From IMG/VR virus record IMGVR_UViG_3300047476_000078, positions 1-29,996 of that record: 29,996 nt of DNA; one strand, 5' to 3'. Shown piece after piece: positions 1,719 through 27,325 of the stretch; within the stretch, counting starts at the first letter, position 1; the number at the start of each line of letters is the position of its first letter. The translations under genes and the position numbers were made by a program. The notes beneath the pieces are model-generated. The model saw nothing but the letters and a program-made list of their open reading frames with translations. It made no database searches and was not told where the DNA came from. This stretch comes from a virus.

Positions 1719-2591
1719 TTACGAAACGGTGTTGTCGAACACGCCGCCCGATGCGGCCTGATTTTTGCAGACCAGCGTGAGTTCGGTGATAATCTGCCGT
1801 TTTTCGCTATCGCCAGTTTTCGCTAGTTCGGTGTTGCGGGTCGGACGCAGAACGCCGACGGCCCACATATCGTCCTGCATGACGAACACGTCGCGGCTGC
1901 GGTTTTCACGCGAAGGCATGAATTCCACGGTGCCCCACGGGGTCACATACACCGACATGTGCTTGATGACCTTCTCGGCCTCGGCAGTGATGTTCGAGCG
2001 CTGGTTGTTGTTACCCGTGAAGGTCAGCGCCTTGTTCATCTGGAATGCCGACAGATAAACGGTGTCAGGCTTGCCGCCCGAAACCCAAATCTGCTGCATC
2101 ACGCTGTCGAACTTGGTCTGGTCGAAAGCCGTCGGCGTGCCGTCGTCCGTGCGGGCGTTGGTGCCGTCGCCAGTCGGGTCGGCACCGCCGTTGCCAGACT
2201 GGAAGTTGGTGTTCGTGGTCAGCCAAGCGGGAGCGCCAGCAAGACGACGGGGAGCCACCGACGAGCCAGCCGAGCGGGCTTGGTTCGCAAACAGCGCCTT
2301 TTCGATGTCGAGCTTCTGCTCCTTGGCGATCTTCAGAACCTGATACGCCATTTCGCGTGCGCGGCCCGCTTTGTTCAAGCCATCGTCGGTGCCGGGGATG
2401 GCAACGGCGTTCTTGAAAATCTGGGTGTAGTTGCCCAGACGGGTCGTCGCCGTGCGCGCTTCGGGGGCAGTGTCACCGCCTTCGATGTGCGCGTTATCCG
2501 CCGACGAGCGCAGAGCATCGGTCTGCCACTCGTGGAAGGTATTGGTCGCCTTCATCTTGGCGCTCTTCGTGTAGAAGGGCGTTTCTTCCAA
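1719..2591 (-). CDS. Major capsid protein, exon 2 (joined to exon 1 at 2847-2933)
   Basis: This exon encodes about 290 residues of an HK97-fold major capsid protein of the DUF5309 (SU10-type) family. Family features visible are KATNTFHEWQTDALRSS near the N-terminus, RTATTRLGNYTQIFKNAV, ALFANQARSAGSS, the SVMQQIWVSGGKPDTVYLS stretch and GTVEFMPSRENRSRDVFVMQ. The mature message should read ISP then LEETPFYTKSAKMKA, giving 319 aa in all. Taken alone the frame could start only at a TTG at 2603 with no ribosome binding site, and would lack the conserved family N-terminus. That N-terminus is found upstream, across a group I intron. Exon 2 may begin at 2591 (supported by a possible P10 pairing) or 2588 (better fit to family spacing). 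The scaffold gene lies upstream and the probable decoration gene downstream. Confidence 0.93.
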   Translation of the reverse strand: MEETPFYTKSAKMKATNTFHEWQTDALRSSADNAHIEGGDTAPEARTATTRLGNYTQIFKNAVAIPGTDDGLNKAGRAREMAYQVLKIAKEQKLDIEKALFANQARSAGSSVAPRRLAGAPAWLTTNTNFQSGNGGADPTGDGTNARTDDGTPTAFDQTKFDSVMQQIWVSGGKPDTVYLSAFQMNKALTFTGNNNQRSNITAEAEKVIKHMSVYVTPWGTVEFMPSRENRSRDVFVMQDDMWAVGVLRPTRNTELAKTGDSEKRQIITELTLVCKNQAASGGVFDNTVS

Positions 2592-2846
2592 CTGTTGCGG
2601 CAAGGCTCTTTATCCCTGCCTCTCCGAATTTCTTCGGAGTGTCGGACTATATCTTCACCCGCTAGGGGTGCCGCGCACTCGTGGGGCTTTACCGTCCGGT
2701 CTGGACTCCATGCCCTAGTCTCTGAACCTTCCAACCATTCCTGATTGGCTTGGCTGCTGATTGGCTTGTCGCTTTCACGATTTAGCTTTCCAGCAATTCA
2801 CGCGGTTATCTCGCACAGGTCGCCCCGTGGAGGCCCAAAGTTATCT
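2592..2846 (-). ncRNA. Group I intron interrupting the major capsid gene
   Basis: Read on the minus strand, all four conserved group I core elements occur in order. P is AATTGCTGGAAAGCT (2784-2798), Q is AATCAGCAGCCAAGCC (2747-2762), R is GTTCAGAGACTAG (2715-2727) and S is AAGATATAGTCC (2644-2655). GACTA of R and TAGTC of S can form P7. A perfect 7-bp hairpin with a GAAA loop (2622-2639) fits P9. The exon end UCGCCU pairs with GGGCGA (2820-2825) as P1, with a terminal U-G pair that places the 5' splice site after 2847. UCCA (2828-2831) can pair with UGGA of exon 2 as P10. No homing-endonuclease gene fits inside, so the intron is minimal at about 255 nt. The 3' boundary is uncertain by a few bases. 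Splicing should be autocatalytic with a guanosine cofactor, by family knowledge. Confidence 0.92.
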
Positions 2847-2933
2847 AGGCGAGATGTCGTAGATGATGTCTTGCAGGTCCTCGCGGATGCCGCGGACATC
2901 ATAGCTGTCAAGCGTGTTTAGAGGCTGCCCCAT
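2847..2933 (-). CDS. Major capsid protein, exon 1
   Basis: The ATG at 2933 has a strong ribosome binding site (AAGGAG, nine bases upstream), placed just after the scaffold gene stop at 2954. The 29 codons encode MGQPLNTLDSYDVRGIREDL followed by QDIIYDISP. This matches the typical start of DUF5309 capsid proteins, which have a Tyr-Asp / Arg-Glu-Asp-Leu / Ile-Tyr-x-Ile-x-Pro pattern followed by Thr-Pro-Phe. Without splicing, translation runs into the intron and stops two codons later (AGA TAA). The exon ends on the third base of the Pro codon CCT, whose final T forms the conserved U-G pair of P1. Confidence 0.9.
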
Positions 2934-2953
2934 GGCATTAACTCCTTAGTGGT

Positions 2954-3901
2954 TCACTTAAACAGAAGATCGATGAAAGCCTCGGGCTTGCCACCAGTCT
3001 TCCGCGCTGCGTCGATCTGCTTTTTCCGAACAAACTGTTGAGGCTCCGAGCGGCGCGCAACGGGCTTGATCGACTTGGGTGCGGCGGGTGCCTTTTGGGT
3101 CCGCGCAGCCTGCAATTCTCGCCACTTCATCGCGTCATGGAGAACTTGAACATGACGCGCATCGACGATGCCGCCCAGTTCGTCGTCCGTAAAGCCGTAA
3201 GCCTCCGATGCCGTGCTGCGAATTTTGCCCGTGATTTCGCGGGCCTTATTCGGATCGGCAAATTCGGGAATACGCGATTGCAGAAGTTTGCTCTGTTCCG
3301 CGACGAACTCAGCCATTGCCTTCTCTTGCATCTGACGATGAGCCATCGCCGTCTGCTGGATTTGCACTTGCTGCGTCTGGAAGTCTTGCAAGTCCTTCCG
3401 ATACCGCGCTTCCGCCTGCATGTATCCGATGGGGTCTTTGTCCATCATAGCCATGTCAGGGGCTTGCGGGGGAGCCTTAAAGCCCTGCTCTTGGATGGTT
3501 TGCACCACCTGCATGAACTTGGCTTGTTCGGTTTGAAGGGTCTGGTAAAGTTCCGTCGCGGCCTTGCGGGCTTCGGCGGCCTCTTGCATTCCCTTCTGGC
3601 GATGCTTCTCAGCGGACCATGAACGCTTGAGTTCGTCTAGCGTGACCTTCTCTTCCTTGCCGTCAGCTTTGACGGTGTAGAGCGTGGTTGCCTCATTCTC
3701 TTGCGGATCAGTCGCGTCGTCATCGTCGACTTCTTCGGATGCTTCCGCCTCGTAGGCTTCTTCTTCCGGCGCTTCAGTCTCTTGCGCTTCCATTTCAGGT
3801 TCGGTCGCAAGTTCTTCCTGCGGTGCCTCATCCTGAACGGACGGTTCGTCCATAATCAGCAGCGAATTAACCGCCGCCTCAATTTTGTCAGTCGCTTCCA
3901 T
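2954..3901 (-). CDS. Capsid scaffolding protein (315 aa)
   Basis: This is a highly charged, helix-forming protein placed between portal and major capsid genes, the classic position of a scaffold. The N-terminal third is very acidic (ELATEPEMEAQETEAPEEEA, then a DDDD run). The middle is a long Gln/Glu/Ala/Lys-rich coiled-coil-like stretch (ELYQTLQTEQAKFMQVVQTI and MAHRQMQEKAMAEFVAEQSK). The C-terminus is basic (RRSEPQQFVRKKQIDAARKT) and may bind the capsid protein. I chose ATG at 3901 (MEATDKIEAAVN); 31 further codons upstream overlap the previous gene and read like shadow sequence. The gene overlaps the upstream 83-aa gene by 14 bases. Confidence 0.88.
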   Translation of the reverse strand: MEATDKIEAAVNSLLIMDEPSVQDEAPQEELATEPEMEAQETEAPEEEAYEAEASEEVDDDDATDPQENEATTLYTVKADGKEEKVTLDELKRSWSAEKHRQKGMQEAAEARKAATELYQTLQTEQAKFMQVVQTIQEQGFKAPPQAPDMAMMDKDPIGYMQAEARYRKDLQDFQTQQVQIQQTAMAHRQMQEKAMAEFVAEQSKLLQSRIPEFADPNKAREITGKIRSTASEAYGFTDDELGGIVDARHVQVLHDAMKWRELQAARTQKAPAAPKSIKPVARRSEPQQFVRKKQIDAARKTGGKPEAFIDLLFK

Positions 3902-4139
3902 TGCGGTCCTGAGCCTTTTTGTCTGCGACCTTCTCGGCGTCGATGCGCGTCTGAATTGCCGCGATGAACGTTTCCACAGCCCGGACGGCTTCATGCGCCC
4001 GCGCTATGGCCGTTATATCAGATGCGGGGTTCAAAAACAATTGGACGGCATCCTCGCGGATTTCATCTGCAATCGCCCTGAAAGGCTCGTATTCAGCCAA
4101 CTGCCGAGCCTGTATTGCGCGCTGATACACATCAAGCAT
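3888..4139 (-). CDS. Small helical protein between portal and scaffold (83 aa)
   Basis: The ATG at 4139 overlaps the portal stop by 8 bases, so translation is probably coupled. The product is a compact, mostly alpha-helical protein (MLDVYQRAIQARQLAEYEPF through AHEAVRAVETFIAAIQTRID) with a charged tail. It has no Cys and no membrane segment. Its place between portal and scaffold suggests a head-assembly accessory function, but I recognise no family. Confidence 0.8.
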   Translation of the reverse strand: MLDVYQRAIQARQLAEYEPFRAIADEIREDAVQLFLNPASDITAIARAHEAVRAVETFIAAIQTRIDAEKVADKKAQDRNGSD

Positions 4140-6231
4140 TCGGCATCATCCCCATCGGGTTCATCGGCTGCATCGGCTGCGTCATGGCCTGCTCCGCCTT
4201 GATCGCCTGCTCGTTCAGCCGAATGCCGCTGTTGGCGAGGATTTTGGCGGCCTCGATGGCCAAGTCCTGCACCATCTTATCGCGCTCACGGTCGTCCTGC
4301 ATCAGCGCCTTCTGGTAATCCAGTTGCGTCTTCTGCTGGTCAGCCATCACGCGCGCCGACATCTTCATCTGCTCGGCTTGCAGGAAGGCGGCGTTGGGAT
4401 CGCTGCCCATTTGCTGGCCCTGCTGCGCCTGCGCGGCCTGTGCGGCCTGCATCATCAGCATCTGCTCGATCTGCGGATTCATGGGCTGGTAGTAGCGTTC
4501 CGCGTTGTGCAGGCCACTGTGGCGCAGAATGTCGGCCAGCGTGTTGCGGATGTTGGTCATCGTCACGACGCCGTTGGTCGGCCCGTAGGACTGCCAGATG
4601 CCCATCTGCGTTTGCAGCGTCTCCCGCAGCACCATAGCCTTTTCTTCGTGCTTGCCCGTGCCGAGGCCAACGTTCACGACCATATCGCTGTCAGCCGACC
4701 AAGAGCGCGGATCGACAGGCACGAACTCGCCGTTGACGCGCATCATCTCTTGGCCGCCGATATGCTGCTTGGCCAGTTTGGCGATGATCTTGAACGCTTG
4801 CTTCATGCCGCCTTCGGCGAGATGGCGCGCGATAAGTTCGGAGACTTGGTTGGCGGCCTGCACGGCGGCGTTGACGCCTTGGGCTGTCTGCGATTGCAGG
4901 ACATCGGCGTCAAGGCCCATGCCAGCCCCAGAGACGCCCGTCTTGGCGCGGATGGCCTCGTCGTAATAGGTGATGGCAGGCAGAAGTCCGCCAGCCATAC
5001 CGCCGATGGTGATTTCGCGCAGTGCGCTCACGTCCTTAGTGCGAATAATGGCGCCGATCTCGTTATTGAGAACGTCGTCCATATTTACAAGCTGGCTGTT
5101 GACCACCATGCGCGGGTTATTGATGAGCGACATGTTGTCAAGCAAACCGCGCAGGAGTGCGGTGGCCGCGTCTTGGTCGTCCATGATGATTTCGACCAGC
5201 GACCGACCGAAGAAAGCATGGGCTTCCGGGTCAACTTCAAACACCGCAAACGGCATTTCATCGCAGAGTTCGTAATCCAGCATTTCGTAGCTGCCGCCAC
5301 CGCAGAGGAACTTGTAAAGCCGGGGGACGCCCGTGCCTTCGATGTCCATCTTCATATAGGCTTCGGTCAGCGTGATCTTCCGCATGGACGGGTCATTGGC
5401 GTCCTCGTCCGTGTCGGTCGCATCCCAGCCAAGGCGTTGCAGCGTCTCTTCCTCGTCCACGCGCCCGTCCGTCGTGCCGGACATGTTGTAGACGGTTTCG
5501 AAGTCGTAACCCATCGCCACAACGTCTCCCACGCGCATTTCGGCGCTGTGGCCGCAGACATAGGCATCCGCGATACCGCTGGCATTGCGGTCCACGAAGA
5601 AGTCTTCCGGGGCCACCGCGTCGATGCGGATTTCCTTGCTGCGGGTTTCCTTGGCCACCTTCAGGCGATAGGATGCGGGCATGATCGTCATACCCATTTC
5701 GTCAATCATCGCTTCCTGCGTGATTTCCTCTTCCAGAATTTCGATTTCCGGGTCCATCCGCAGGAAAGACACCTGATCTTCGGTCAGGTCGCTGTATTCG
5801 TCAATTTCGATGCTGGCAGGTTCGTCAACGTAAACCTTCCAGATGCCGACCTTCTTCTTCAGCGCGTCGTCAATGGCGTCCGATAGGATTTGGAAACCGT
5901 TGTTCCGCTCGAAGACATAGGCTGCGTAATTGGTCTTCTGCTCAGCTTCCTGCACGGCTTGCGGCTTGCGCGGCACGAACTCGACCGGGCGGCCAGATTG
6001 CAGGAAGACGCGCATCAGCGACGGCTTGACCGCGCGGATGGTGTCCCGGCACTTCGTGGCGACCACGCTTGAACGACCGTCCTCATAGCCAAGATCGACT
6101 TGGCCGTCGAAATACTTCTGCGCCTTGATCCGCTGCGGCGCGATCTCGGCCTCAATGAAGTCCACCGCTTCCGTGATGGCGTTCTTGATCGTGTTCTGTA
6201 TCTGGTCGCGGGATAGCTTCTTCGGTTTCAT
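4132..6231 (-). CDS. Portal protein, P22-like (699 aa)
   Basis: This protein forms the dodecameric ring at the DNA entry vertex; about 700 aa is the usual size for P22-type portals. Visible portal features include the N-terminal helix (EAEIAPQRIKAQKYFDGQVD), SSVVATKCRDTIRAVKPSLM and KKKVGIWKVYVDEP. Then come IRIDAVAPEDFFVDRNA, FAVFEVDPEAHAFFGRSLVE and a long Gln/Met/Ala-rich C-terminal region (MMQAAQAAQAQQGQQMG) that fits a barrel-type C-terminus. The start at 6231 lies 8 bases after the stop of the 735-aa gene. It sits directly before the small helical protein, the scaffold and the capsid gene. Confidence 0.92.
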   Translation of the reverse strand: MKPKKLSRDQIQNTIKNAITEAVDFIEAEIAPQRIKAQKYFDGQVDLGYEDGRSSVVATKCRDTIRAVKPSLMRVFLQSGRPVEFVPRKPQAVQEAEQKTNYAAYVFERNNGFQILSDAIDDALKKKVGIWKVYVDEPASIEIDEYSDLTEDQVSFLRMDPEIEILEEEITQEAMIDEMGMTIMPASYRLKVAKETRSKEIRIDAVAPEDFFVDRNASGIADAYVCGHSAEMRVGDVVAMGYDFETVYNMSGTTDGRVDEEETLQRLGWDATDTDEDANDPSMRKITLTEAYMKMDIEGTGVPRLYKFLCGGGSYEMLDYELCDEMPFAVFEVDPEAHAFFGRSLVEIIMDDQDAATALLRGLLDNMSLINNPRMVVNSQLVNMDDVLNNEIGAIIRTKDVSALREITIGGMAGGLLPAITYYDEAIRAKTGVSGAGMGLDADVLQSQTAQGVNAAVQAANQVSELIARHLAEGGMKQAFKIIAKLAKQHIGGQEMMRVNGEFVPVDPRSWSADSDMVVNVGLGTGKHEEKAMVLRETLQTQMGIWQSYGPTNGVVTMTNIRNTLADILRHSGLHNAERYYQPMNPQIEQMLMMQAAQAAQAQQGQQMGSDPNAAFLQAEQMKMSARVMADQQKTQLDYQKALMQDDRERDKMVQDLAIEAAKILANSGIRLNEQAIKAEQAMTQPMQPMNPMGMMPNA

Positions 6232-20862: not shown

Positions 20863-20914
20863 ACCCAAAGAGAAGCCCAGCCGATTTCACCCACCCAAAG
20901 AGAAGCCCAGCCGA
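20863..20914. repeat. Two direct 22-bp repeats, 30-bp period, upstream of terS
   Basis: An identical 22-base unit (starting ACCCAAAGAG and ending GCCCAGCCGA) occurs at 20863-20884 and 20893-20914. The right copy also forms one arm of the terminator hairpin at 20905-20931. The repeats sit 64-115 bases upstream of terS. They may be a partial duplication of the terminator, a regulator site for the late promoter, or part of a packaging initiation site. Confidence 0.8.
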
Positions 20915-20931
20915 GGGAGGGTCGGCTGGGC
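20905..20931 (-). terminator. Intrinsic terminator of the dpdA-transporter operon
   Basis: A perfect 10-bp stem (GCCCAGCCGA paired with TCGGCTGGGC) with a 7-base loop lies 67 bases past the transporter stop. On the minus strand it is followed by TTCTCTTT, a moderate pyrimidine/T tract. It would separate the modification operon from the late block. Confidence 0.7.
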
Positions 20932-20997
20932 CATTTACGGACAGGCGTGTCCAGCAGGGAGGTAGTGCGGGAAGCATACCACGTTATGTGCGGCTGT

Positions 20998-21516
20998 TCA
21001 TCTTGTTTTTCTAAACCTGAGTGCCATCAGGATGGCTGCCGCGACAATTGTCATCCACAGCTTTCCGACGATCTGACCAGCGATGAAGTCGAGCGAACCG
21101 AATGCCAGCCACAGGAAGACCGCGCTATCCACGGCGGCACCGACCAAACCAGAGGCAACGACAGCCAGCACCAGCCGATTGCGCTGAAGCGGAGCATAAA
21201 CCGCAAGGTCTGCAAGTTCGGACAAGATGAAGGCTGCAATAGAAGCAATCACCAGAGCAGGCGGGGAGAACTGGAACGACAAGGCGGCACCAACTGCAAT
21301 TGCGGCCAAGGCCCATTGCCAGCCGAGAAGACGATGAACGGCATCCCGCAGGACTAGTGCGACCCCGATCATAAGCACGCCAGACGGGGCCATTAGGCCA
21401 AAGCCTACGGGGATCAGACAAGGGCCGTTGGGGATACACTCCCCGACATTTCCAATCATCCAGTTTGCGGCTGGAATAGTAGCCGCGTAGGCGGCGAGGG
21501 CGATATATCCGATCAT
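20998..21516 (-). CDS. yhhQ: VUT/YhhQ-family queuosine-precursor transporter (172 aa)
   Basis: This is an integral membrane protein with about five or six hydrophobic segments. It starts MIGYIALAAYAATIPAANWM and contains IPNGPCLIPVGFGLMAPSGV, then LALVLRD-like VLMIGVALVLRDAVHRLLGW. Further on are SELADLAVYAPLQRNRLVLA and GAAVDSAVFLWLAFGSLDF, and the end is basic. This matches the VUT family, which includes YhhQ, the importer of preQ0/preQ1. The ATG at 21516 overlaps the dpdA-like stop by 4 bases; a longer frame to 21705 lies inside that gene and is rejected. Paired with a DpdA-type enzyme, it probably imports the base used for DNA modification. Confidence 0.88.
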   Translation of the reverse strand: MIGYIALAAYAATIPAANWMIGNVGECIPNGPCLIPVGFGLMAPSGVLMIGVALVLRDAVHRLLGWQWALAAIAVGAALSFQFSPPALVIASIAAFILSELADLAVYAPLQRNRLVLAVVASGLVGAAVDSAVFLWLAFGSLDFIAGQIVGKLWMTIVAAAILMALRFRKTR

Positions 21517-22193
21517 ACTGCGAGGTCCATCTGTTGAGGTCTGATTTCCCAGCGTGCTGGGCATTGCGCGCCATCCCAGCGGTCGGCCATTTTTCGTGGC
21601 GTCTGATGCTGGAGATGGTGGTTGCGGGCGATATCGGTGCTGTCCACCGATGCGAAGGGATATTGCTTTCCGGACAACTGCATTCCTCGAAGCATGTGAA
21701 GCCAAGGCATCCTCTTGTGACGCGCAGACAACTCGTTGAACGCTTCATCCATCCGGCGGCACCATGCAGGCGACAGGACCGTGGCGTATTCTGCCGTTGA
21801 TCCCACGCAGACACGGGGCCACTCGTCACAAAGGCGCAGAAGCCTGTGGATGGGTTCGTCCATGTGCCAGACGGGCGCGCCCTTGTGACCATGTGGCCAC
21901 TCACGCAAAAGCGCGTCTTGTTCCTGCGTTCCAGCGTCGATCACGTCTGGGATGACGGCCCACGTTGTCGGGAAATCAAGCCACTGATCGCACCACTGAT
22001 AGTAGGCGCTCCAGTTGGTCTGCTTCCCAGATTTCCAAGCTGAGAACGCGCCGTTGTCCAGCATTACGGATTGTCCGATGCTGTGAACACGCGCCACGTC
22101 TTGAGGTGCGGCGTGAGACACGCAGAAGCATCGCCCTGCCAGTTCCATTATGGCTGAGATTGGCGTTATTGGGGTGCCGTGATAATGCATCAT
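21513..22193 (-). CDS. dpdA: DpdA-type 7-deazaguanine DNA transglycosylase, TGT-like (226 aa)
   Basis: The protein looks like a small phage DpdA (DpdA2-like), related to tRNA-guanine transglycosylase. Two TGT-type active-site regions are visible. VMLDNGAFSAWKSG has Asp 46 where TGT has its D-S-G-G-F motif. PFASVDSTDIARN has Asp 185 where TGT has its nucleophile in DCVxPxR. Between them lie WAVIPDVIDAG, PVWHMDEP, VCVGSTAEYATVL and LHMLRGMQ, expected of a TIM barrel. The Cys/His zinc site of tRNA-acting TGT is absent. It should exchange guanine in DNA for a preQ0-like base. The gene overlaps both neighbours by 4 bases, so the three are translationally coupled. No preQ0 synthesis genes are in the window. 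Confidence 0.78.
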   Translation of the reverse strand: MMHYHGTPITPISAIMELAGRCFCVSHAAPQDVARVHSIGQSVMLDNGAFSAWKSGKQTNWSAYYQWCDQWLDFPTTWAVIPDVIDAGTQEQDALLREWPHGHKGAPVWHMDEPIHRLLRLCDEWPRVCVGSTAEYATVLSPAWCRRMDEAFNELSARHKRMPWLHMLRGMQLSGKQYPFASVDSTDIARNHHLQHQTPRKMADRWDGAQCPARWEIRPQQMDLAV

Positions 22194-24800: not shown

Positions 24801-24850
24801 TTGTGCGTTATCGCCCTCTTGACATACGGCGGCGCACAATGCAATGTCAA
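24801..24850. promoter_or_regulatory. Divergent early promoter/operator region
   Basis: Two inverted-repeat pairs are interleaved here. TTGTGCG (24801-24807) pairs with CGCACAA (24833-24839), and TTGACAT (24819-24825) pairs with ATGTCAA (24844-24850). Each arm of the second pair gives a consensus -35 box, TTGACA, one on each strand. Leftward, TATGTC follows at an 18-base spacing. Rightward, the -10 element is weak (CAATGT at 17). The HTH gene starts 17 bases to the left and the Sak4-like gene 69 bases to the right. Regulation of both by the HTH protein is inferred. Confidence 0.55.
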
Positions 24851-24918
24851 GTCACCGGGTTGAGAGCCTGTCCCGGTCAGGCGCGGCACAAGGTGCCAAA
24901 TATGAAAGGAAGCCTTCC

Positions 24919-25704
24919 ATGTCCATCATGGAACTAGCCCGCAAGCCGGTTGATCGGCCTGTGATCGTGACTGTGTGCGGCGATGCCGGACGCGGTAAAA
25001 CCAGCCTAGCGGCTGCGTTTCCAAAGCCGATCTTCATCCGCGCAGAGGATGGGATGCAGGCCATTCCCGCAGACAAACGCCCTGATGCGTTTCCGCTGCT
25101 GCAAAACGCCACGCAGCTTTGGGAGCAAATCACGGCGGTGATCCACGAACCGCACGACTACCAAACGCTGGTGATCGACAGCGTGACCGCGCTGGAGCGG
25201 CTGTTCGTGGCCGATGTGCTGGCGCAAGACCCGAAGGCCAAGAGCATCAACCAAGCCCTCGGCGGATACGGCGCTGGCACGGCTGCGGTGTCTGCAATGC
25301 ACCAGCGTGTCCGCAAGGGCGCGGGGCTGGCAAACGAAAAGCGCGGGATGCATGTGGTCTTCGTAGCCCACGCAGACGTTGAGACGCTGAAACTGCCGGA
25401 CGTTGACGATTACATGCGCTGGACGCTGCGCCTGCCACCGAAGTCGCAGCCGCCTTACACCGACGACGTGGATGTGGTCGGGTTCCTGCGCCTTGTGACC
25501 TACACCAAAGGCGAAGACGGCGACCGCAAGAAGGCGATCAGCACGGGCGACTTGGAAATGGTCGTCCACGCAACGGCGGCCAACGTCTCGAAGAACCGCT
25601 ACGGCATCACCGAACCGCTGGACTACCGCCTCGGTGAAAACCCGCTGGCAAAAGTCATCCCGTCGCTTGGCGGGGCTAAACCTCAAACCGCAGAACAGGA
25701 GTAA
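24919..25704 (+). CDS. Sak4-like RecA-fold ATPase / single-strand annealing protein (261 aa)
   Basis: The ATG at 24919 follows an AAGGA ribosome binding site; a longer frame to 24844 runs into the operator region and is rejected. The AAA_24-type P-loop is VIVTVCGDAGRGKTSLAAAF (Walker A 21-29), followed by IFIRAEDG. Walker B is YQTLVIDSVTALERLF (Asp 87). A sensor strand GMHVVFVAHADVETLKLP and a C-terminal strand-rich part follow. Phage Sak4 proteins are RecA-like annealing or recombination ATPases and often neighbour SSB and exonuclease genes, exactly as here. Strand exchange or annealing of phage DNA is the likely role. Confidence 0.87.
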   Translation: MSIMELARKPVDRPVIVTVCGDAGRGKTSLAAAFPKPIFIRAEDGMQAIPADKRPDAFPLLQNATQLWEQITAVIHEPHDYQTLVIDSVTALERLFVADVLAQDPKAKSINQALGGYGAGTAAVSAMHQRVRKGAGLANEKRGMHVVFVAHADVETLKLPDVDDYMRWTLRLPPKSQPPYTDDVDVVGFLRLVTYTKGEDGDRKKAISTGDLEMVVHATAANVSKNRYGITEPLDYRLGENPLAKVIPSLGGAKPQTAEQE

Positions 25705-25709
25705 TTAAC

Positions 25710-26360
25710 ATGGGTTTTTGGGATCTTTCCGACGGCCAGAACGCCGCCAACACTGGCACCGAATACGAGGTGCCGTCCGGCAATATGGACCCGATCCCGG
25801 CTGGGTCGTCCGTGCTTGCTATGATCGATGAGTGCAAGTGGGAGATGAAGCAGACGGGCGAGGAGTTCATCTCCGCGCGCTGGACGGTGCTTGCGCCTGA
25901 GCAATACAAAAACCGCAAGGTTTTCCACAAGATGTGGGTTTTAGACTTGGACCCCAGCGCCAAGGACGAAGCCGCAGGCCTGAAAAAGCGTGACAATGCG
26001 CGCAAGATGCTTTCGGCCATCGACGCAAACGCGGGCGGAAAGCTGACCGCAAAACCTGGGCGGCCCACGAATGACGATCTGATGCACCTGACCAACAAGC
26101 CGATGGTCTGCACCATGATGGAATGGGAAATGCCGGACACACGCAATGGCGGCACGATGCGCGGCAACTGGGTTTCGGCAGTGGCGTCCAAGGGCAACAA
26201 GGACATCCACATTGCGGACGCAAAACCGCGAGCGGCTGGAAGCAACGCAGCACGGCGCGATGACTTCAGCGCACCCGCTGGGAACGCACCCGCCGGGGGA
26301 TATAGCAAGCCCGCGATGATGGATGACGACGTGCCGTTTGCCCCGGTCTGGTTGATCTAA
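25710..26360 (+). CDS. ssb: Single-stranded DNA-binding-like protein (216 aa)
   Basis: The start is ATG 25710 with AGGAG upstream, inside the end of the previous gene. The OB-fold-like N-terminal part includes SSVLAMIDECKWEMKQTGEE, then FISARWTVLAPEQYKNRKVF and GTMRGNWVSAVASKGN. The C-terminal third is disordered, Ala/Gly/Pro-rich and basic, then ends in an acidic DDDVPFAPVWLI. That ending resembles the acidic DDDIPF tip that SSB proteins use to bind partners. Placement between the Sak4-like gene and the exonuclease supports the call. Confidence 0.75.
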   Translation: MGFWDLSDGQNAANTGTEYEVPSGNMDPIPAGSSVLAMIDECKWEMKQTGEEFISARWTVLAPEQYKNRKVFHKMWVLDLDPSAKDEAAGLKKRDNARKMLSAIDANAGGKLTAKPGRPTNDDLMHLTNKPMVCTMMEWEMPDTRNGGTMRGNWVSAVASKGNKDIHIADAKPRAAGSNAARRDDFSAPAGNAPAGGYSKPAMMDDDVPFAPVWLI

Positions 26361-26370
26361 GCCGGGACAA

Positions 26371-26435
26371 GTTGCCAGCGCCACGAAGGTGGAGAGCCGA
26401 TTACCCTGAGCATTCAGAGGCGCGGCGCTGGCAAC
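26371..26435 (+). other. Structured intergenic element between ssb and exonuclease genes
   Basis: A perfect 12-bp inverted repeat, GTTGCCAGCGCC (26371-26382) and GGCGCTGGCAAC (26424-26435), encloses 41 bases. Inside, CTGAGCATTCAG can form a second small hairpin and GGT...ACC a third, giving a possible three-way RNA. No T-run follows, so it is not an ordinary terminator. It lies 27 bases before the exonuclease start and could be a cis-regulatory RNA or a processing site. Confidence 0.6.
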
Positions 26436-26461
26436 ACCATCAAAACACACAGGAGAGCAGA

Positions 26462-27325
26462 ATGGAACAGCGGACAGAAGAATGGCACGCAGCCCGCAAG
26501 GGGCGGATCACAGCGTCGTCAGTGGGCGCAATCCTTGGCAATGCGCCATATGCCACACGCGCCGACGTGATGCGCCGCATGGTGCGGGAGTGGGTCGGCG
26601 CGCCGGAAGAATTTGAAGGCAACATTGCCACCGAATATGGGGTGAAAAACGAAGCTGGCGCGCTGACGGAATACGTCTTGGAAACTGGGCTGCGCGTTGA
26701 GCCGATTGGGTTTGTGACGCGCGAGGATTGGGCTGGGTGCAGCCCTGACGGGTTGATTGGCGAAGCTGGCGGGCTGGAAATTAAATGCCCCTTCGGGCTT
26801 CGCAAGGGAGATGCGCCTGCATTCAAGTCGCTGGCAGATCAGCCGCACTATTACGATCAGGTGCAGTTTTCGCTGTGGGTCACTGATCGATCTTGGTGGC
26901 ATTTTTACCAGTGGTCGCCGCGCGGCACTGCGATGGAAAAGGTGATGCGAGACTATGAGTGGGCTGCGATCAACCTGCCCAAACTGCGCCAATTCTACGC
27001 GGAATATCTGGCCGAGCGGGAAGACCCAGCAATCCACTTGGAGCCGAAGCGCCCGGTCATCGACACGCCGGAAGCGCACCGCATCGCTGCGGAATACGAC
27101 CAGATTTGCGATGCAATCGACCGCGCAGAGGAACGCAAGAAGGAATTGCTGGCCGATATGGTCCGCATTTCTGGGGGCAAAGATGTCATCTTTGCAGGGC
27201 GCAAGCTGACCAAGATCGAAAAGGCCGGGGCGATTTCCTACGCCAAGGCGATTAAGGCGCTGATGCCGGATGCAGACTTGGAAAAATGGCGCGGTAAAGC
27301 GTCCAGTTATTGGGTGGTCAAATGA
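26462..27325 (+). CDS. YqaJ/lambda-type exonuclease (287 aa)
   Basis: The ATG at 26462 follows AGGAGA; upstream codons to 26372 overlap the hairpin and are rejected. Family features are TEEWHAARKGRITASSVGAI, then ATEYGVKNEAGALTEYVLE. The catalytic core is AGCSPDGLIGEAGGLEIKCP (Asp 96, Glu 106, Lys 108), followed by QPHYYDQVQFSLWVTDRSWW. This is the D...E-x-K PD-(D/E)XK arrangement of YqaJ and lambda exonucleases. A C-terminal helical part (IAAEYDQICDAIDRAEERKK) follows. The enzyme should digest one strand of double-stranded DNA to feed the annealing ATPase. Confidence 0.9.
   Translation: MEQRTEEWHAARKGRITASSVGAILGNAPYATRADVMRRMVREWVGAPEEFEGNIATEYGVKNEAGALTEYVLETGLRVEPIGFVTREDWAGCSPDGLIGEAGGLEIKCPFGLRKGDAPAFKSLADQPHYYDQVQFSLWVTDRSWWHFYQWSPRGTAMEKVMRDYEWAAINLPKLRQFYAEYLAEREDPAIHLEPKRPVIDTPEAHRIAAEYDQICDAIDRAEERKKELLADMVRISGGKDVIFAGRKLTKIEKAGAISYAKAIKALMPDADLEKWRGKASSYWVVK

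Follow-up and report, generated by a model that had tools for sequence, protein, structure and literature searches.

Group I introns in the major capsid genes of phages have been described before. In the mycobacteriophage LittleE, splicing of the capsid-gene intron was shown by RT-PCR together with protein sequencing, the lactococcal phage Tuc2009 being also cited there for a capsid-gene group I intron (PMC3706429), while in crAss-like phages members of the Delta and Zeta groups carry group I introns in their major capsid protein (MCP) genes (PMC7886860). The psbA intron of the cyanophage S-PM2, found along with the free-standing enzyme F-CphI, represents collaborative homing (PMC6083498). In a 2014 review the targets given as typical for phages are polymerases, ribonucleotide reductases and terminases, capsids being unmentioned (PMC3984707). 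Concerning the SU10-type capsid genes, no report of an intron was found in the open-access literature.

The intron presented here is located in the window, i.e. the whole analysed stretch of 29,996 bases—the IMG/VR virus record IMGVR_UViG_3300047476_000078—with its capsid gene on the minus strand and with an SU10-type portal and a Terminase_3 among its other genes. It resembles that of LittleE as a group I intron in a major capsid gene, preceded by U, ending with G and having intronless relatives; the LittleE insertion, however, is 819 bp long, contains a LAGLIDADG-like ORF and interrupts another capsid gene, whereas the window intron consists of 258 nt without an ORF and occupies a different site in a gene of the SU10 type. 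In crAss-like phages the MCP gene is likewise a repeated target, sometimes with several introns per gene, but those introns were found through their endonuclease domains, whereas the window has a minimal intron at a defined SU10-capsid site. With the psbA intron of S-PM2 it shares the lack of an ORF and, presumably, mobilisation by a nuclease encoded elsewhere; introns with the core motif of the window do occur in viral psbA genes, although the host gene is a different one and F-CphI is known there. Among the best isolate matches were the introns of Felix O1-like Salmonella/Escherichia phages, lying within DNA polymerase genes or beside them, their similarity (79% identity) being partial, covering only a part of the core, and their host gene being another one. 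Since capsid-gene group I introns were known before, the window intron is ordinary in kind and is informative rather as a member of a capsid-site family. The explanation of the locus as a whole, held with high confidence on sequence grounds, would be an IA-type self-splicing intron between capsid codons 29 and 30 that is laterally mobile by means of a nuclease acting in trans.

The interrupted capsid gene

The first exon (2847..2933, minus strand) comprises 29 codons starting with the ATG at 2933, is preceded by an AAGGAG ribosome-binding site approximately 10 nt upstream and is homologous to the uninterrupted genes of about 80 intronless relatives. Its product is MGQPLNTLDSYDVRGIREDLQDIIYDISP, after which the frame enters the AGA TAA of the intron. 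The second exon, including the stop codon (1719..2588, minus strand), begins with GAAGAAACG at position 2588 in the corrected join, matches the PF17236 profile and is colinear with the solved capsid chain 9ny2_A through the junction. The joined protein was recognised by SU10_MCP (PF17236) with an E-value of 2.4e-81 over residues 12–314—a run performed with one extra Leu at the junction, taken over from the first-pass annotation—and, in the corrected form, aligned with 9ny2_A free of gaps at the junction. It shares 73–95% identity with the 80 closest IMG/VR capsids, all of them uninterrupted. Based on this homology, the host gene of the intron is the SU10-type major capsid gene; the profile match and the alignment with 9ny2_A thus agree with the first-pass annotation, which had placed the intron in that gene. 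It had also rightly foreseen that ordinary ORF calling yields a truncated capsid gene with a TTG start (1719–2603), an annotation that is now corrected.

The intron itself (2589..2846, minus strand) follows U2847 and ends with G2589. Its 3′ end had been placed at 2592, i.e. 3 nt off, giving a junction IYDISP-LEETPF one residue longer than the DISP-EETPF of the relatives. When joins requiring a U ahead of the intron and a G as its last base were scored against the intronless capsids, the best one was 2846..2589 with a score of 274 (259 for the earlier end). The corrected product reads IYDISP/EETPF, without the extra Leu, as do about 80 intronless relatives and the solved capsid; the ligated exons would read TCGCCT/GAAGAAACG and the tryptic peptide expected of the corrected joined capsid is EDLQDIIYDISPEETPFYTK.

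It could be supposed that no splicing takes place and that the capsid protein, devoid of its first 29 residues, starts at a TTG within the intron (2603 or 2591). An in-frame TTG ORF is indeed present, and the site-A introns compared all have NTG (ATG or TTG) as their last three bases, with the GAAGA of exon 2 following immediately. The same terminal NTG is, however, found also in introns lying in other reading phases (phase 2 in L117 and phase 1 in L211); being independent of the phase, it is more likely to be structural, and its role as a start codon was rejected. Moreover, the first 29 capsid residues align to the solved chain 9ny2_A, the helices of the intron covary, and exon 1 is preserved as protein, its changes being mostly silent: in comparison with L002 it exhibits 16 nucleotide differences but only two amino-acid changes, which indicates coding selection and translation as a part of the capsid. 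A start inside the intron is therefore scarcely credible, and the spliced reading is followed below.

Intron fold and the predicted splicing reaction

The Rfam model RF00028 matched positions 2856–2622 of the minus strand with 84.4 bits (E-value 2.3e-20), well above its gathering score of 50, so that the covariance-model check proposed in the first-pass annotation gave a positive result. All the elements listed there—the P, Q, R and S core, a P1 with a terminal U.G and a P9 hairpin—are present, the further helices being P7.1/P7.2, P8 and P9.1. In P1 (2833..2850), the exon GCCU (2850–2847) is paired with the guide GGGC (2836–2833), the U.G closing the helix at the 5′ splice site and the intron ending with G2589. 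P2 (2810..2832) has nine pairs, one bulge and a GCGA loop. P3 (2671..2805; 2805–2801 with 2675–2671) encloses P4 (2796–2791 with 2759–2754), P5, P6, P7.1 (2715–2712 with 2687–2684) and P7.2 (2706–2703 with 2697–2694). The guanosine-binding helix P7 (2645..2720), a pseudoknot contained in the RF00028 match, is formed by R (2720–2716) and S (2649–2645). P9 (2639–2633 with 2628–2622) is capped by a GAAA loop, and P9.1 (2620–2614 with 2605–2599) harbours the TTG at 2603–2601. All these helices are on the minus strand, as is P10 (2585..2840), in which the intron CUUU (2840–2837) faces GAAG of exon 2 (2588–2585). P10 had been suggested as possible; the CUUU:GAAG pairing can form with the corrected 3′ end but not with the one assumed earlier, and it should be noted that it consists of four pairs only, one of them being G.U.

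Covariation was counted in an alignment of nine complete introns, each including short stretches of the flanking exons, using the structure written from the window sequence. Standard pairs occupied 95.9% of 660 cells, in contrast to 32–44% if the partners were slid by 1–3 columns; for P1 and P10 the paired cells amounted to 94% and 78%, respectively. Two-sided changes were seen in 36 of the 74 helix pairs, a number equalled by none of 500 shuffles. They concern seven of nine pairs in P2, three of four in both P7.1 and P7.2, six of seven in P9 and four of seven in P9.1. The P3/P7 core, P4–P6 and P8 are thus present with compensatory changes, P7 and P6 themselves being invariant in the nine introns and hence giving no covariation signal of their own. 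The window intron folded alone by energy minimisation reached −96.5 kcal/mol (z −3.4 against shuffles), the fold recovering P1–P6, P7.1/P7.2, P8, P9 and P9.1, while the P7 pseudoknot is beyond that method. Extra helices P7.1 and P7.2 inserted between P7 and P3 are the arrangement of subgroup IA. With both of them covarying, the window intron is, as judged by its predicted structure, an IA-type group I intron. Neither a promoter nor a terminator was found inside the region.

The intron is very probably active and should excise itself. In the pre-mRNA, the guide GGGC would pair with the exon GCCU to form P1, a guanosine bound in P7 would attack after U2847, and the freed exon 1 would then attack after G2589, aligned by the CUUU:GAAG pairing of P10. 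Ligation would lead to a capsid protein of 318 residues containing IYDISP/EETPF, while in the unspliced mRNA translation would stop after 30 residues, at the TAA of the AGA TAA with which the intron opens.

Introns in related capsid genes and their spread

Among the 80 closest IMG/VR capsids none has a group I intron at the site of the window, and none was found anywhere in 49 records of these closest relatives. Contigs with the same site filled were retrieved by a search pattern that combined the S element with the capsid exon. Among the matches listed, about a dozen other contigs are filled, the same codon boundary being occupied in L082 (and L091), L083/L084, L088/L096, L092/L095, L094, L097, L098 and L099; further same-site introns come from a second scan (L212) and from relatives of L097 (L216, L249 and L253). 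In the neighbourhood of L097, six contigs are filled and the sites of L226, L227, L228 and L231 were empty on inspection. A second site, located 3 nt downstream (SPT/ETPF), houses a minimal intron in L087/L100 and an intron with an HNH ORF in L090, L089 looking alike. Introns with the same core occur elsewhere in the capsid gene in L084 (its second intron), L117 (two), L182 and L211, and apparently also in L126, L154, L157 and L202, their boundaries being not fixed. On the plus strand of L084, a single capsid gene is interrupted by two minimal introns of group I (972–1221 and approximately 1890–2100). On the minus strand of L089 (strand positions ~2730–5657), the SU10-type capsid gene appears to be broken up into three pieces or more, one insert carrying an HNH-like ORF and another a LAGLIDADG-like one. 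When prophage copies were sought in bacterial genomes, the pattern matched 21 times; as none of these loci matched the capsid profile and the 14 that were read out lay away from any capsid site, they were treated as chance matches.

The intron and its host gene often have different degrees of similarity. The introns of L094 and L098 are 96% identical, the capsids sharing 38% of amino acids, and L084 and L097 have all 250 intron bases in common, with exons identical at 80% of nucleotides. On the capsid tree of 89 rows with 12 carriers, occupancy has to change state 10 times, and well-supported branches force eight or more of these changes. The filled L216 (intron of 255 nt) differs from the empty L217 in three positions within 16 bases upstream and 10 positions within 39 bases downstream of the site, whereas beyond −16..+39 both sequences are identical until −117 and +234; such a cluster of differences flanking the site is what repair templated by a donor would be expected to leave behind. 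Between L253 and L252 the only differences near the site are those at −1 and −4, turning TCTCCA into the P1-competent TCGCCT. Broad comparisons with distant partners showed no sign of co-conversion. It is in relatives, and not for the window's own copy, that lateral transfer accompanied by co-conversion of the exons is seen.

Taken together, the intron family appears to spread laterally and the pattern points to DNA homing, in which the intron would enter empty capsid alleles site-specifically, through repair of a break copied from an intron-bearing gene. Since the nearest kin of the window are all empty, we infer that its own copy arrived by homing, too. The natural plus/minus pairs L216/L217 and L253/L252 offer a test of homing into an essential and very highly expressed gene.

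The window intron has no encoded homing endonuclease, as the first-pass annotation had noted, there being no ORF in it beyond short fragments; the introns of the neighbouring site in L090 and L089, by contrast, carry HNH-like ORFs. The whole window contig, which ends approximately 1.7 kb past the capsid gene, was found to be devoid of HNH, HNH_3 and Endonuclease VII domains, and HNH_3 was not detected in 22 intron-bearing records either. An intron without a nuclease of its own requires that the cutting enzyme act in trans, and such an enzyme is what the homing proposed here would involve. One candidate is an Endonuclease VII-like gene that some carriers have 1.5–3 kb downstream of the capsid gene and that could drive homing as F-CphI does for the cyanophage psbA intron, the collaborative-homing enzyme F-CphI belonging to that family (PMC6083498). 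Each of the six filled contigs near L097 possesses the gene, in L084, L088, L096 and L097 it lies on the downstream side of the capsid gene, and it is absent from 49 intronless relatives of the window. The gene is, however, also carried by no fewer than 17 contigs of that clade in which the site is empty, including L217 and L252, nearly identical to their filled partners, although an enzyme able to cut the empty site would not be expected to last there. The association is confounded by ancestry. The Endonuclease VII-like ORFs were therefore not assigned as the mobilising enzyme, a role that seems unlikely for them, and homing is ascribed here just to some nuclease acting in trans.

The first-pass annotation had further seen splicing efficiency as a possible control point, the intron being kept because it tunes capsid output. 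The introns of this lineage do sit in very highly expressed genes, such as those for the major capsid protein and psbA, yet conserved DNA in a gene possessed by every phage is also what a homing target requires. The intron is, moreover, missing from all 80 closest relatives, and its presence and absence are scattered among close relatives, including the pairs L216/L217 and L253/L252 with nearly identical capsid genes. Such gain and loss suggests that the intron is a passenger, mobile and neutral; a role in regulating the output of capsid protein is unsupported and looks very improbable.

Host genes of the intron lineage and other loci of the window

When viral contigs were scanned with the intron core as the only criterion, at least 119 stretches were obtained, the downstream frames of which were grouped and the representatives labelled. 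Among the matches listed, groups of major head proteins total 32 of 107 downstream frames (~30%, an approximate value), spanning eight PHROG families (1328, 1005, 10, 267, 247, 1357, 752 and 334). They are followed by psbA, encoding the photosystem II D1 protein, with 20–23 of 110 upstream frames among the matches listed, and by genes for RecA/UvsX, ribonucleotide reductase and DNA polymerase as well as intron-borne endonucleases. The view that a capsid gene is a rarer home thus does not hold: capsids are the commonest host class of the lineage among the matches listed, and capsid-gene group I introns had already been published (PMC3706429; PMC7886860). These contigs make it clear that there is nothing unusual in this lineage residing in capsid genes. 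Whether they represent the principal home of one lineage of small introns, mostly lacking an ORF, in environmental phages, with several neighbouring SU10-type sites repeatedly colonised across distant phages by trans-acting nucleases, is a proposal to which we would give an even chance. The repeated colonisation of several capsid sites may be the part that specialists do not expect, and introns of capsid genes may systematically escape notice in viral metagenomes.

Elsewhere in the window, two adjacent genes on the minus strand (20998–22193) match queuine tRNA-ribosyltransferase (phrog_887) and phrog_4899, a family of unknown function; the latter gene resembles a queuosine-precursor transporter, the pair being perhaps a 7-deazaguanine module. 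At 20897–20978 (minus strand), matches to the small RNAs ar14 and anti-hemB, both below the gathering scores, coincide with CCUCCC motifs and a terminator-like hairpin. Finally, a Sak4-like annealing protein, a single-strand binding protein and a RecE-like exonuclease are encoded consecutively on the plus strand (24844–27325), this recombination module being on the strand opposite to the structural genes.
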